The notes under the pieces are model-generated. The model saw only the letters and a list, made by a program, of their open reading frames with translations, ran no database searches and had not been told where the DNA came from. Below, piece by piece: positions 21,591 to 47,555 of a stretch of DNA of 64,000 nt. Location: positions 385,680 to 449,679 of the forward strand of contig NZ_OZ060395.1 in the NCBI RefSeq assembly GCF_964059125.1, in the 5' to 3' direction. Both the position numbers and the translations under genes were made by a program. The DNA comes from Buchnera aphidicola (Eriosoma lanigerum) (GTDB lineage: Bacteria > Pseudomonadota > Gammaproteobacteria > Enterobacterales > Enterobacteriaceae). Position 1 is the first letter of the stretch. The number at the start of each line of letters is the position of its first letter.

Positions 21591-23084
21591 TTATTTACAT
21601 TCGTTATTAAACCAACAGATATTTCTTGCTTCCATAATTAATTCACCAGCTTGAACTACATTTAATTCTTTTATATCAATTAAATCATTGATACTTTGTT
21701 CAGCTAAATTTTCTAAAGTAAATATTTTTTTTTTTGATAATTCAAAAGCTACAGATTGTGTCATACCACGTAAATTTAATAAATGAGTATCAATTATTTC
21801 ATGTTGTTCCATACTATTTTTGTTTTCTAGCTTAAAATGAATCAATGCATTTTTTGCTTTTTTACGAATATTTTTTACTGAAGCAACATCAAAACCTTTT
21901 ATATTTAATAATTCTTCAAATGAAATATAAACTAATTCTTCTATTTTAGTGAATCCTTCATCAATTAAAATTTGAGCCAAAGTATCATTAATACATAGAG
22001 TATTTTTAAATAAACGAAAAATATTACTAGAATCTTTTTTATGTTTTATTCCTGATTCTTCTACTGTCATAACATTCAATTCCCATCCTGTTAATTGAGA
22101 TGCTAAACGAACATTTTGTCCATTTCTTCCAATAGCTTGTGCTAAATTACTACTTTCTACAGCAATATCCATAGTATGAGAATCTTCATCAACAATAATA
22201 GAAGCAACTTCTGCTGGAGACATGGCATTAATTACAAATTGTGGATAATTTTCATCCCATAATACAACGTCAATTCTTTCTCCACATAATTCACTAGAAA
22301 CCGCTTGTACTCTTGCTCCACGCATACCTACACATGCTCCTACTGGATCAATTCTTTTATCATTAGTTTTAACAGCTATTTTAGCACGGGAACCAGGATC
22401 TCTAGCTGTAGATTTAATTTCAATAACTTCTTCTCCTATTTCTGGAACTTCTATTCGAAACAATTCTATAAGCATTGCATCTTTTGATCTACTAACTAAT
22501 AGTTGTGCTCCTCTAGATTCAGGTTGTACTGCATATAATACTCCTCTAATCCGATCTCCTGGTCTAAAATTTTCTCTAGGTAACATATCTTCACGCATAA
22601 TTAAAGCTTCTGCATTGTTACCTAAATCTAAAATAATATTGTCTCGATTATTTTTTTTTACTATTCCAGCAACAATTTCACCTAATCGGAGACGGAATTG
22701 TGCAACAATCATAGCTCGTTCTGCTTCACGAACCTTTTGTACAATAACTTGTTTAGCTGTTTGAGTAGTAATTCTATCAAATACTACTGATGGTATTTTA
22801 TCTTCAATATAATCATTAACTTGAATTATTTTATTTTCAAAACAAGCTGCTTCTACTGTAATTTCTTTTGTTGGTTGTGTCACTTCATGTACGACCAACC
22901 ATCTTCTAAAAGTAGTAAAATACCCTGTTTTTCGATCAATACTCACTCGAATATCAATGTCTTTATCATATTTTTTTTTTGTTGCTGTAGCTAATGCTAT
23001 TTCTAAAGCTTCAAAAATTTTTTCTCGAGGTAAAGATTTTTCATTAGCAACTGCTTCTGCAACAGCTAAGATTTCTTTATTCAT
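21591..23084 (-). CDS. nusA: Transcription elongation/termination factor NusA
   Basis: Binds RNA polymerase and modulates pausing, termination and antitermination. I place the start at the ATG at 23084, giving 497 residues that begin MNKEILAV exactly like E. coli NusA (495); the longer frame adds nine unalignable residues. The NTD, S1 domain, two KH domains ([15 protein letters not shown] and [14 protein letters not shown]) and two C-terminal acidic repeats are all present. AAGG lies 9 nt upstream. In E. coli rimP and metY precede nusA; both are absent here, and leuU-secG lie upstream. Confidence 0.98.
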
Positions 23085-23791
23085 CTTAATTAACCTTAAT
23101 ATATTTTTCAATAAACTATTAATTTAATATACTATTTTTATTTTTATTAATAATTTTAATTATATTATTTTTTTTAAAATCACCATTAATTAACAATTAT
23201 ATTTAAAATATAAATTTTTAAATAAAATATAACAAAATACATATGTATTTAGTTTAAAATTAATACAAAATATATAAGTGTATAATTAAATTAAATACTG
23301 TAATACAACTTACAATAAACATGTACTTATATTTATATCAATATAACAATATTACAACATTTAATGTAATTAATTATTAATATTTAATATTTATTAATAA
23401 AATTTTATTTATCCTATGTAGAAGTTTATAATTTCATAATTAAAAATTAATTTTTAATTGATAATATTTTAATAATTAACAAATGATTATTTTGTATAAA
23501 TTTAAAAATAACATTTCAATGTTATATTGTAATAAATTTATATAATATTACATAAATAATAAAAAACCCCGATTAAATTCGGGGTTTTACATATTTGTCA
23601 CCCTAAAAAAAAATATATAACAATTAATAAATTACAATAGCAATAAAAAATTGAATATATTATATATAGTGTTATATATTTTATATATATATATATTATT
23701 TGTTATATAAATAACAATTTAATTAGTAATAATATACATTACAAAAAATATTTTTTTTACATTATATTATGAATGACTTTAATTAATTTAA
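23085..23791. other. Gap between tRNA-Leu and nusA
   Basis: About 700 nt. In E. coli metY and rimP lie between leuU and nusA. No initiator tRNA and no RimP-like frame is visible. The only clear feature is the strong hairpin terminator at 23563-23588. The nusA operon promoter must lie between that terminator and 23084, but I cannot pick it out. Confidence 0.6.
23563..23588 (-). terminator. Rho-independent terminator after tRNA-Leu
   Basis: AAAACCCCGA and TCGGGGTTTT form a 10-bp stem with a 6-nt loop, the most GC-rich hairpin in the window. On the minus strand it is followed by a T-rich tail. It separates the secG-leuU transcript from the nusA operon, both on the minus strand. Confidence 0.88.
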
Positions 23792-23877
23792 TGCCGAAGA
23801 CGGGAATTGAACCCGTACGCCTAAATTACAGCACTACTACCTCAAAGTAGCGTGTCTACCAATTTCACCACTTCGGC
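23792..23877 (-). tRNA. leuU: tRNA-Leu (GAG)
   Basis: 86-nt class II tRNA. The acceptor GCCGAAG pairs with CTTCGGC, followed by discriminator A. The anticodon stem CTACT/AGTAG holds loop TTGAGGT, giving anticodon GAG; there is a long variable arm and a T arm with GTTCAATT-type loop. CCA is not encoded. It is the counterpart of E. coli leuU, which also sits between secG and nusA. Confidence 0.97.
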
Positions 23878-23916
23878 AAATAATAAATGTTTTAAACTAT
23901 ACTTTAATACTCTATA

Positions 23917-24242
23917 TTATCTAGGAATATCTCCATTAAAAATTATTTTATTTTTAGTATTTTTATTCATATGAACTAGTTCTTTTTGATTATCATCTAA
24001 TATTAAATGTTGAGTTTCTTCATAAATAATAATTCGGCATAATATTAATGCAACAATAAAAAAAACAGCTGCTATACAACTCGTAACTATTACTATATTA
24101 TTTTTTCTATATGAATTAAATATACTATTTATCCCATTTTCTTCTATAGAATTAACATTCGTATTTTTTTCTGATTGAATCATAATTAAAAAAATTAATA
24201 AAAATGATATTACAATAAAAAATATAAAAAAAAATCATACAT
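23917..24242 (-). CDS. secG: SecG translocase subunit, split by a one-base frameshift in a T tract
   Basis: SecG is the small two-helix subunit of the SecYEG protein-export channel. The uninterrupted frame (from ATG 24183, 88 residues) holds only the second helix (NIVIVTSCIAAVFFIVALIL) and the C-terminus ending NGDIPR, like E. coli SDIPN. Upstream, ATG 24242 with AGGA 11 nt before it begins M-Y-D-F-F, like E. coli M-Y-E-A-L, then meets a run of 9 T (24226-24234). One added T would join it to FFIVISFLLIFLIMIQSEK, which aligns without gaps to the E. coli first helix ending LIMLQQGK. Either transcriptional slippage restores the protein, or this is a young pseudogene or homopolymer sequencing error. 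Position between leuU and ftsH fits secG. Confidence 0.85.
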
Positions 24243-24378
24243 ATATTATCACATCCTGATTAATTCACATAATTAAAATAAAATTAAACATTAAAAAAAA
24301 AATGAGATTTTAATTATTAATAATTATCGTCATTTCTATAATAAATAAAAATGTTATAATTCATACGATTATTATGAA

Positions 24379-24408
24379 AACAAAATAAAATATTGAAATT
24401 ATTTTGTT
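24379..24408 (-). terminator. Possible terminator downstream of ftsH
   Basis: AACAAAATAA and TTATTTTGTT form a 10-bp stem with a 10-nt loop, 111 nt after the ftsH stop codon and before secG, both on the minus strand. On the minus strand a short T-run follows. There is little G or C in the stem, so termination would be weak. The surrounding 277 nt is the place of folP-glmM in E. coli and holds no coding remnant. Confidence 0.4.
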
Positions 24409-24519
24409 ATTAACATACATTTAAATAATAATGAGAATAGAATTCTAGATAACATTATAAATATACTAATAAAAAAAATATTTGTAAATTATTAATATAA
24501 AATTAGTAATTATAAAAAA

Positions 24520-26373
24520 TTAAATAATAGTATGATCAATATTTTTATCAGACCAAAATTCCGGTGGACGAACTGGTTTTCTATTCATTAAATCACTGAT
24601 TTGCATAGAATCAATTGTCTCATATTTTATTAATGCATCTTTCATTAAATGTAATATGTCTATATTTTCATTTAATATTTTTTTAGCTCTAAAATAATTT
24701 TTTTCTATCAATAATTTTACTTCTTCGTCAACAATTCTAGTGGTTTCATTAGATATATATTTAGATTTTACTACAGTTTTTCCTAAAAAAATTTCTCCTT
24801 CATCTTCTGAATATAATAATGGTCCTAATTTATCTGAAAACCCCCATTGTGTAATCATTTTTCTAGCTAAATTAGTAGCTATTTTAATATCATTTGCTGC
24901 ACCAGTAGAAACTCTATCTAAACCATAAATTATTTCTTCAGCTAAACGACCACCATATAAAGTTGATATTTGACTTTCTAATTTTTGTCGACTAATACTA
25001 AAAAAATCTTCTTTGGGAAGGAAAAATGTAATTCCCAAAGCTTGTCCTCTAGGTATAATTGTTACTTTATGTACTGGATCATGCTCTGGAACTAATTGAC
25101 CAATAATTACGTGACCTGCTTCATGATAAGCAGTCGATTCTTTTTGCATATCTGTCATAATCATTGATTTTCTTTCAGATCCCATCATTATTTTATCTTT
25201 CGCTTTCTCCAATTCTATCATAGATACTACTAATTGATTAGATCTGGCAGCATATAGAGCTGCTTCATTAACTAAATTAGCTAAATCAGCACCAGAAAAA
25301 CCAGGTGTTCCTCTTGCTATAATCATTGGAACTACATTCTTTGATAAAGGAACTTTTTTCATGTGTACTTTAAGAATTTGTTCTCTACCTCTTAAATCTG
25401 GTAAAGGAACAATCACTTGACGATCAAAACGACCGGGTCTTAATAAAGCTGGATCTAATACATCTGGTCGATTTGTAGCAGCAATCAAAATAACACCTTC
25501 ATTTCCTTCAAATCCATCCATTTCAACTAACATTTGATTTAAAGTTTGCTCTCTTTCATCATGTCCTCCTCCTAAACCTGTACCTCTTTGCCTACCTACA
25601 GCATCAATTTCATCAATAAATATTATACATGGAGATGACTTTCTAGAATGTTCAAACATATCACGCACTCTAGATGCTCCAACTCCAACAAACATTTCTA
25701 CAAAATCTGATCCAGAAATCGTAAAAAATGGAACTTTTGCTTCACCAGCAATTGCTTTAGCAAGTAAAGTTTTTCCTGTACCAGGTGGGCCTACCATTAG
25801 TAATCCTTTAGGAATTTTTCCACCTAATTTTTGAAATTTAGAAGGTTCTTTTAAATATTCTACTAGTTCTTTTACTTCTTCTTTAGCCTCATCACATCCT
25901 GCTACATCAGAAAAAGTAATTTTAATTTGATTATCTTTTAACATCCTTGCTTTACTTTTTCCAAAAGACATTGCACCTTTTCCACTACCTAATTGAATTT
26001 GTCTCATGAAAAAAATCCATACTCCAATTAATAATAATGTAGGAAACCATGAAATAAATATAGATGCAATAAGACTAGGAGGTTCAGGAATATCTCCTGT
26101 AACTTTCACATTTCTCATTAAAAGATTATCAAGTAACTTAGGATCACGAATAGGAATGAAAGTCATATATTTACTGCTATCTTTTTTAGTGACACTAATT
26201 TCACGACCATTAATATGTGCTTCACGAACCTGGTTTTGATTTACTTCAGATAAAAAAGTTGAATAATCTATTTTATGATAATTATCGTTTTCAGAACCTA
26301 AATTATGAAAAACAGATATTAAAATTGCTGAAATAACTAACCAAAGAACCAGGTTTTTAGCCATGTCATTCAA
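24520..26373 (-). CDS. ftsH: ATP-dependent zinc metalloprotease FtsH
   Basis: Membrane-anchored AAA+ protease degrading misassembled membrane proteins and short-lived regulators. 617 residues. Transmembrane helices at about 5-25 and 102-123 flank a periplasmic domain; Walker A GPPGTGKT is at 195-202, Walker [10 protein letters not shown] and [24 protein letters not shown] follow, and the zinc site HEAGH lies near 417. The start is TTG at 26373 (MNDMAKN, as in E. coli MSDMAKN), favoured by GAGG 8 nt upstream; an internal ATG at 26364 would give 614 residues starting MAKN. The Gly/Pro-rich E. coli tail is missing. In E. coli rlmE lies directly upstream, as here. Confidence 0.98.
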
Positions 26374-45200: not shown

Positions 45201-45544
45201 TTTAAAATACGTCTTGCATTTTAAAAAAATTGTAAGACGTATTATTTTTTTATATTTAGAATATATATTATTAAAAATAATAAAAACTATGACACATAAT
45301 TAACATTTATATTTAATTATCAAAATTAATTATTTAATAAAAATTAATATACTTATTTTACGTTAATTTAATATAATTAATAAAAATTATATTTTTTACT
45401 TATGTAAAAAATCTAAATTAAATAATTTTGTAATAGAATTATTCCTATTATTAATTACAAAAAAATATTTGATTTATCAAAAAAAAGAAAGTAGAATTGA
45501 ATATTCATAGTAATAATAATTACCATAACTAAAATTTATAATAT
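45201..45544. other. Gap between csrA and tRNA-Ser
   Basis: 344 nt. It begins with the csrA terminator (45206-45243) and otherwise is A/T DNA leading to the tRNA-Ser gene. The tRNA promoter must be here, but no -35/-10 pair is convincing. Confidence 0.55.
45206..45243 (+). terminator. Rho-independent terminator of csrA
   Basis: AATACGTCTT (45206-45215) pairs with AAGACGTATT (45234-45243), with a further CA/TG pairing inside, followed directly by a T-run. It starts six nt after the csrA stop codon. Confidence 0.85.
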
Positions 45545-45631
45545 GGTGAGATGGCCGAGTGGTTTAAGGCGCTCCCCTGCTAAGGGAGTATGTTTTTTCT
45601 AGCATCGAGGGTTCGAATCCCTCTCTCACCG
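45545..45631 (+). tRNA. serV: tRNA-Ser (GCU)
   Basis: 87-nt class II tRNA. Acceptor GGTGAGA pairs with TCTCACC, discriminator G; anticodon stem CTCCC/GGGAG with GCT anticodon reading AGC/AGU codons; long variable arm and GAGGG-TTCGAAT-CCCTC T arm. CCA is not encoded. Same csrA-serV-argV neighbourhood as E. coli. Confidence 0.97.
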
Positions 45632-45652
45632 TAAATAAAACAATAATAATTT

Positions 45653-45725
45653 GCATCCGTAGCTCAGATGGATAGAGTACTCGGCTACGAACCGAGCGGT
45701 CGGAGGTTCGAATCCTTCCGGATGC

Positions 45726-45726
<1 letters not shown>
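45653..45726 (+). tRNA. argV: tRNA-Arg (ACG)
   Basis: 74 nt, nearly identical to E. coli argV. Acceptor GCATCCG pairs with CGGATGC, discriminator A; anticodon ACG in loop CTACGAA, whose first A is normally edited to inosine by TadA. CCA is not encoded; the discriminator A merges into a long A run. Confidence 0.97.
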
Positions 45727-46034
<308 letters not shown>

Positions 46035-47555
46035 TTGATTAGCAATTTGTCCAATAAAATACAATGGATTCAAGATAATCCTACTATTCTAAAAAATATT
46101 AAAAGAGGAATAGAACGAGAAACTATACGAATAAATTTAGATGGTCAATTATCATACACACCTCATCCAAATTTTTTAGGATCTGCTTTAACTCATAAAT
46201 GGATTACCACTGATTTTTCTGAAAGTTCATTAGAATTCATCACTCCTAGTTGTAATAATATCAACTATATCTTACAATTTTTAAAAAATACTTATCATTT
46301 TGTTACTCAAAATATTATAAATGAAAGAATGTGGCCACTAAGCATGCCTCCAAATTTACCTATTAATGAAAATCTTATTCCAATAGCTCAATACGGTTCG
46401 TCTCCTGTTGGAATAATAAAATCAATATACCGAAATGGACTACGAAATAGATATGGATCATCTATGAATATGATTTCAGGAGTACATTATAATTTTTCAC
46501 TACCTGAAAAATTTTGGAAAATATGGAAACAATGTCAAAACAAACAATATGAAACAAATTATATTTCTTCTGGATATTTTCACATTATTAGAAATTATCA
46601 TCGATTTGGATGGATTATACCATATTTATTTGGATCATCTCCAACCATATGTTCTAATTTATTAAAAAATAAAAAGAACATAAAACATCTAAAAAAAACC
46701 AAAAAAACAGGTTTTTATGCACCATGGTCTACATCTCTAAGATTAAGTCCAATAGGATACCAAAACCAATCAAATACTAATTTAAACATAACATTTAATT
46801 ATTTAGATGAATATTTAAATACTTTAAAATATGCTATAAATACTCCTTTTCCAAAATTTGTTAAAATAGGTTTAAAAAACTCATTTGGAATGTATAATCA
46901 AATTAATACTAATATATTACAAATGGAAAATGAGTTTTATACACCTATCCGACCTAAAAGAGTACTAAAACATAAAGAATCCTATTTAGAAGCCTTATAT
47001 CAAAAGGGAATAGAATATATTGAAGTACGTTCATTAGACGTAAATCCATTTTCTCCAATTGGAATTAGTAAAACAGAAATACTGTTATTAGATTTGTTTC
47101 TAATTTGGTGCTCATTAATAAAATCACCTACAATGACTTTAACAGAACTTAACATAACAAAAGAAAACTGGAATCGAATTATTTTTGAAGGAAGAAAACC
47201 AAATCAATCTATTATAATTAATTCAACTAAAAAAAATGTATCATTAGTAACAATTAGTAAAATGATATTTTATGATTTATTTAAAATAGCTGAAATATTA
47301 GATAAAAATTATAAAAATAATGATTATTATAATGTATGTAAAAAATTAATTAAATATTTTGATCATCCTGATCTAACATATTCTTCAAAAATATTGAATA
47401 TTATAATTGAAAATGGAATTCAAGAAACAGGATTAAAATTATCTAATCAATATTATAATCAATTTAAAATTAAAAAATTAAACCCAATTATAAATAAAAA
47501 ATTATTCAAAGAATCTTTTCTATCTATAAGAAAACAAAATCATCTAGAACAATAA
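46035..47555 (+). CDS. gshA: Glutamate-cysteine ligase
   Basis: First step of glutathione synthesis, joining Glu and Cys. 506 residues (E. coli 518), with RGIERETIRIN, SALTHKWITTDFSESSLEFITP, DERMWPLSMP-like NERMWPLSMPP, and IEYIEVRSLDVNPFSPIGI motifs. The start is TTG at 46035 with AAGGA 7 nt upstream; E. coli gshA also starts with TTG. gshB is not in the window. In E. coli luxS follows gshA; it is absent here. Confidence 0.97.
   Translation: MISNLSNKIQWIQDNPTILKNIKRGIERETIRINLDGQLSYTPHPNFLGSALTHKWITTDFSESSLEFITPSCNNINYILQFLKNTYHFVTQNIINERMWPLSMPPNLPINENLIPIAQYGSSPVGIIKSIYRNGLRNRYGSSMNMISGVHYNFSLPEKFWKIWKQCQNKQYETNYISSGYFHIIRNYHRFGWIIPYLFGSSPTICSNLLKNKKNIKHLKKTKKTGFYAPWSTSLRLSPIGYQNQSNTNLNITFNYLDEYLNTLKYAINTPFPKFVKIGLKNSFGMYNQINTNILQMENEFYTPIRPKRVLKHKESYLEALYQKGIEYIEVRSLDVNPFSPIGISKTEILLLDLFLIWCSLIKSPTMTLTELNITKENWNRIIFEGRKPNQSIIINSTKKNVSLVTISKMIFYDLFKIAEILDKNYKNNDYYNVCKKLIKYFDHPDLTYSSKILNIIIENGIQETGLKLSNQYYNQFKIKKLNPIINKKLFKESFLSIRKQNHLEQ

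Follow-up and report, generated by a model that had tools for sequence, protein, structure and literature searches.

How is SecG made, if it is made, from a gene whose start codon is out of phase with its reading frame? The question is posed by secG of Buchnera aphidicola (Eriosoma lanigerum), within a window of 64,000 nucleotides (positions 385,680 to 449,679 of contig NZ_OZ060395.1), the whole stretch of DNA analyzed here. Coordinates below are those of the window.

Start region and gene context of secG

The gene occupies the place of secG on the minus strand, between ftsH upstream (24520–26373, an ORF call) and a tRNA-Leu (gag) gene detected by ARAGORN directly downstream (23791–23878), both likewise on the minus strand; a nusA-like ORF, named by eye from its sequence, lies beyond the tRNA at 21591–23111. 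The order ftsH-secG-tRNA-Leu-nusA is the one known from Buchnera and E. coli. A promoter scan of positions 23700–24600 returned 12 sites against a shuffle mean of 11.8, no excess.

Read along the minus strand, the start region consists of a Shine-Dalgarno-like AGGA (24257–24254), an ATG 11 nt further on (24242–24240), TAT GA, a run of nine thymines (T9, 24234–24226) that is the presumed slippage site, and an A at 24225. Translation from the ATG would yield M-Y-D-F-F-L-Y-F-L-L before a TAA at 24212–24210, a short zero-frame ORF of 10 codons and a stop (24210–24242) that is the putative product of reading with no slip. The SecG frame (24234–23917, 105 codons and a stop at 23919–23917) is one base out of phase with this ATG and is immediately preceded by an in-frame TGA (24237–24235). 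It holds no ATG, GTG or TTG ahead of helix 1, and its first ATG, at 24183, would give 88 residues with helix 2 only. From its first codon, the frame matches the Pfam SecG profile PF03840 at 37.7 bits (cut-off 29.2) and the NCBIfam secG profile TIGR00810 at 40 bits (cut-off 30.85). The minus-strand sequence thereby bears out the initial annotation, which had described the ATG at 24242, M-Y-D, T9 at 24226–24234 with the frame lost thereafter, and AGGA 11 nt before the start; the gapless fit to E. coli SecG, with L-I-M-x-Q at residues 19–23, is also as described. The frameshift is hidden in the annotation, because P0001, the genome's own protein record (102 aa), starts at the ATA at 24223–24225.

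Conservation of the frameshift and of the SecG frame

We compared the window's own genome (G000) with two further genomes of the genus (G001 and G002). The arrangement ATG-TA-Y-GA-T9-A, with an identical phase error, is present in all three, and a search with the pattern ATGTAYGA-T9-A returned one exact copy in each genome; the reversed pattern, searched as a control with up to one mismatch, matched once in G002. A second place in G001 reading ATGTATTA-T9-A (L194, G001:C1:475031–475048) has one mismatch to the secG pattern. Upstream of the corresponding ATG stand AAGGA in G001 and GGAGA in G002, and the heptamer U UUU UUA occurs in the phase of the ATG in all three genomes. The sequence 3' of the tract is different in G001 and in G002, and the zero-frame peptide shows no conservation; as read from the sequences, its lengths across the three species are 6, 10 and 15 residues, and in G001 it is M-Y-D-F-F-L followed by a stop. 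The genes secE and secY scored above cut-off, with no internal stop, in 3/3 genomes.

SecG of G001 passes both profile cut-offs (36.5 for Pfam, 35.5 for NCBIfam), and that of G002 falls slightly under both curated values (28.0 vs 29.2 and 28.4 vs 30.85). In all three genomes the SecG frame is free of stops, the other two frames holding 7 to 17 stops each, and dinucleotide shuffles kept it open in 0 (the window), 1 and 8 of 20,000 trials. With the tract left out, SecG is 47, 33 and 39% identical between pairs of genomes over 90, 86 and 87 codons, which carry 80, 112 and 106 nucleotide differences; FtsH is 86, 77 and 79% identical in the corresponding pairs over 221 residues. Set beside the FtsH values, the SecG identities indicate that the frame remained open while the protein changed considerably. 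Because SecG is stop-free in three genomes at 33–47% identity and the frameshift is common to them, a recent pseudogene and a homopolymer sequencing or assembly error, the two alternatives entertained in the initial annotation, are unlikely; the accumulation of stops in relatives that it had named, together with T9-only transcripts, as a sign against rescue was not seen.

Codon position 2 changed least in every pair (31-18-31, 45-29-38 and 38-24-44 differences at positions 1-2-3), and the tests of this pattern were weak (p = 0.12, 0.18 and 0.051, none below 0.05). Expressed as the log identity ratio, change in SecG over change in FtsH was 5.0, 4.3 and 3.8 here versus 1.6–4.0 in five pairs with in-frame secG, drawn from three genera in which ftsH adjoins secG, one of the pairs being based on 104 FtsH residues only. 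This somewhat faster change relative to FtsH suggests that the constraint on SecG may be relaxed; selection on the SecG frame is likely present, and may be loosened. In a tree of 14 FtsH sequences, the genus formed one clade with a support of 86, G000 and G002 being separated by 0.34 substitutions per site as a sum of branches; several deep nodes of this tree were poorly supported (29–59).

The probability of nine Ts being kept in three species by chance is, as a rough estimate, about 0.02 when all T sites of the gene are considered and 0.11 for the T sites of helix 1, and the tract letters alone therefore prove little. A homopolymer control, in which 0/18 runs of eight or more in 14 ortholog triples were kept in both relatives, overstates the case, because T8–T9 recurs at the secG spot in other lineages. 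It is the kept phase error together with the kept frame, and not the letters of the tract, that carries the weight. Judged from the sequences, the frameshift is old and inherited, and the frame downstream of it still looks selected.

To place the frameshift among other secG genes, 46 further copies from outside the larger free-living genomes were inspected (13, then 5 on the plus strand, and 28), the majority of them in small genomes of symbionts belonging to the same family. Every copy has an in-frame start codon, an ATG in 45 and a TTG in one (G264); at the latter locus (L158) no in-frame ATG is present at the start, and the TTG, with AGGA upstream, is the likely start. In-frame relatives often carry T8–T9 followed by A or G at the corresponding place (T9, in frame, in 6/28), and those bearing the tract read N-N-T TTT TTT TTA/TTG and continue in frame. 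The base lost here may therefore lie just beside the T run or, as initially annotated, inside it. Across the copies inspected, the T tract is common in relatives, and only in this genus was it found out of phase.

Candidate routes from the start codon to SecG

The explanation that we favor, and regard as probable, is that a one-base frameshift at the beginning of secG became fixed in this Buchnera lineage before its species diverged, and that SecG is still made, by slippage of RNA polymerase on T9. Translation would start at the ATG at 24242; RNA polymerase would slip on the T9 template run, giving a fraction of messages with a U tract of a length that brings the ATG and the SecG frame into phase; these messages would be translated into SecG with both helices, and unslipped messages into a short peptide (6–15 residues). 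The gene combines an indel at an A/T run of about nine or more, here T9, with an otherwise open frame, and the frameshift is kept without decay in all three genomes of the genus. In-frame starts are unlikely, since the ATA of P0001 is ACA in G002, and as the zero-frame peptide is not conserved either, slippage remains. Slippage by RNA polymerase needs the run alone. Fold z values, computed for three stretches of G000 only, were −0.32, 0.90 and −0.03, and no RNA stem was found downstream of the tract in this genome (−0.32 and −0.03), which suits polymerase slippage. In E. coli, SecG assists SecYE but is not essential; given a dispensable SecG, the slip may be tolerable, and may roughly limit how much SecG is made. 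Of 157 transcription insertions in Buchnera, 151 fell in homopolymer runs, and insertions in A/T runs rose with run length up to 11 nt; the study reporting them (PMC5574713, in excerpt) observed no transcript in which a frame was restored. At long poly(A) runs of frameshifted symbiont genes, 12–50% of messages are corrected, according to an excerpt of PMC5009743.

The tract also holds U UUU UUA in the ATG frame (24231–24225, minus strand), a candidate −1 ribosomal slip site, which makes polymerase, the agent suggested in the initial annotation, no more than the probable one; its case for selection and rescue is strengthened by the presence of the frameshift in 3/3 genomes. Conserved −1 ribosomal frameshifting, in which ribosomes from the ATG at 24242 would slip back one base on the heptamer, is the chief rival, to which we accord a modest chance. 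The product, M-Y-D-F-F-L-I..., would retain the F-F-L of many in-frame relatives, the heptamer follows X XXY YYZ in the zero frame in all three genomes, and in G001 a stop stands right behind it (UUA UAA). The A that follows the tract is retained as well, but in three sequences only. Shine-Dalgarno stimulators of −1 frameshifting are spaced about 10–14 nt from the slip site, whereas the AGGA precedes the heptamer by 22 nt, a long distance for a stimulator, and no downstream structure was found in G000 that could serve as one. Accessible text of PMC5009743 describes U_UUU_UUA as the HIV shift site, yielding both Leu and Phe products, but as weaker than A_AAA_AAG in E. coli. Polymerase and ribosomal slippage may both act; in the chloroplast atpB case the two were hard to separate (PMC8254509, in excerpt). 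A more far-reaching proposal is that codons 3–6 of secG constitute a recoding site fixed across the genus, with slippage on T9 or U UUU UUA as the sole route to SecG, kept by selection as a setter of translocon dose; this we consider doubtful.

The remaining explanations dispense with slippage. The shared frameshift could be an old inactivation in a secG that is dying or dead, in keeping with the somewhat fast change of SecG relative to FtsH, with the 5/147 genomes that have no Pfam SecG match (one of which, G032, was matched with the window protein), and with the loss of secG in some Buchnera, that of Cinara tujafilina having none (PMC3246468, in the part available). A frame that is open in 3/3 genomes despite 80, 112 and 106 nucleotide differences between pairs, and that shuffles almost never leave open, renders a dead gene improbable. 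Initiation at a non-standard codon of the SecG frame itself, the ATA at 24225 or a nearby ATT, would make a frameshift unnecessary; it is the start implied by P0001, and the ATA is also present in G001. Under this proposal, what had been claimed of an unrescued gene, a product limited to helix 2, would hold for ATG, GTG and TTG starts and not for the P0001 start, which would keep most of helix 1. We judge such initiation to be very unlikely: G002 has ACA at this place with no in-frame ATG, GTG or TTG upstream of the tract, the AGGA precedes the ATA by 28 nt, and all three genomes retain the ATG together with a Shine-Dalgarno-like sequence of its own. Long homopolymers are the usual site of assembly error, and Buchnera is polyploid, such that a minority of genome copies could hold an in-phase tract; both variants are extremely unlikely, given that the T9 tract is identical in three assemblies, that 38 A/T runs of nine or more lie inside ORFs of the window (counted where 60 nt or more of the ORF remained, in 41 mechanically called ORFs of 100 aa or longer, one pair of which overlaps on opposite strands), and that no other gene of the window was seen to change frame relative to the ORFs of G448, G001, G002 and G337.

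Known slippage systems and other features of the window

Poly(A) frameshifts of Buchnera and Blochmannia were reportedly found by Tamas et al. in 2008 to be rescued by RNA polymerase slippage. The secG case resembles them in belonging to an AT-rich insect endosymbiont and in combining a single homopolymer indel with an otherwise intact gene. It differs from them in having a U tract, only nine long, at codons 3–6 of a very short gene, and in being kept in 3/3 genomes of the genus at 33–47% protein identity. The tract of Shigella mxiE is about nine U. Transcriptional slippage restores the longer product of mxiE (PMC4256274 and PMC5009743, in excerpt), as polymerase slippage would at secG; unlike secG, mxiE belongs to a type III system as a regulatory gene, and its slippage efficiency was measured, at 20–30% (PMC4256274, in excerpt). 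Rescue by slippage at poly(A) frameshifts of Buchnera and Blochmannia is described in the available portions of PMC3017870, PMC5009743 and PMC3164680, the first of which states that some endosymbiont frameshifts are kept between species. An example from the same portion of PMC3017870 is dnaX, in which a frameshift with inferred slippage rescue is common to Blochmannia vafer and Blochmannia floridanus, as the secG frameshift is to species here. With the HIV −1 ribosomal site, secG shares the identical heptamer in the identical phase (PMC5009743, in excerpt), but no downstream stimulator was found at secG in G000.

Conserved, slippage-prone frameshifts of endosymbionts are already published, and secG adds to them; the case is of interest for how old it is, for a tract that is poly(U), and for lying at codons 3–6 of a translocon gene. 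We found no report of this secG frameshift in the titles and abstract openings of open-licence literature on Buchnera and aphid secG, slippage, frameshifting and pseudogenes, and the accessible parts of PMC9116674 and PMC11193766 contain nothing on secG. Homopolymer mutations are commonly taken as recent inactivations; across four Buchnera genomes, 42 of 69 pseudogenes were both restricted to a single genome and caused by them (PMC3164680, in excerpt). A genus-wide frameshift in a gene that still looks selected offers a natural test of whether endosymbionts live on slippage, and secG provides a defined site for telling slippage of the polymerase from that of the ribosome.

Matches to the window were obtained for 52 of 77 ORFs of G448, 60 of 68 of G001, 28 of 31 of G002 and 19 of 24 of G337, and no true frame change in window genes was found among them. 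The only multi-frame G448 match corresponds to the tRNA-Ser and tRNA-Arg genes at 45544–45727. Ten of the 52 G448 matches contained internal stops; nine are antisense to window ORFs, and the stop in the tenth is the end of the ORF at 46035–47555. The sole multi-frame match of G001 reflects a weak second match (25% identity), some 2 kb away from the principal match. Right behind the tRNA-Ser and tRNA-Arg genes, a long A run is followed by an AT repeat (45726–45765). The first 4000 positions of the window have a G+C content of 12.8%, against 16–26% in the other 4-kb steps. Elsewhere in the same genome, a plasmid contig of 8,363 bases (L177, G000:C2) matches the trp plasmids of other Buchnera; the plasmid contigs in G001 and G002 are smaller (1.8–3.0 kb).
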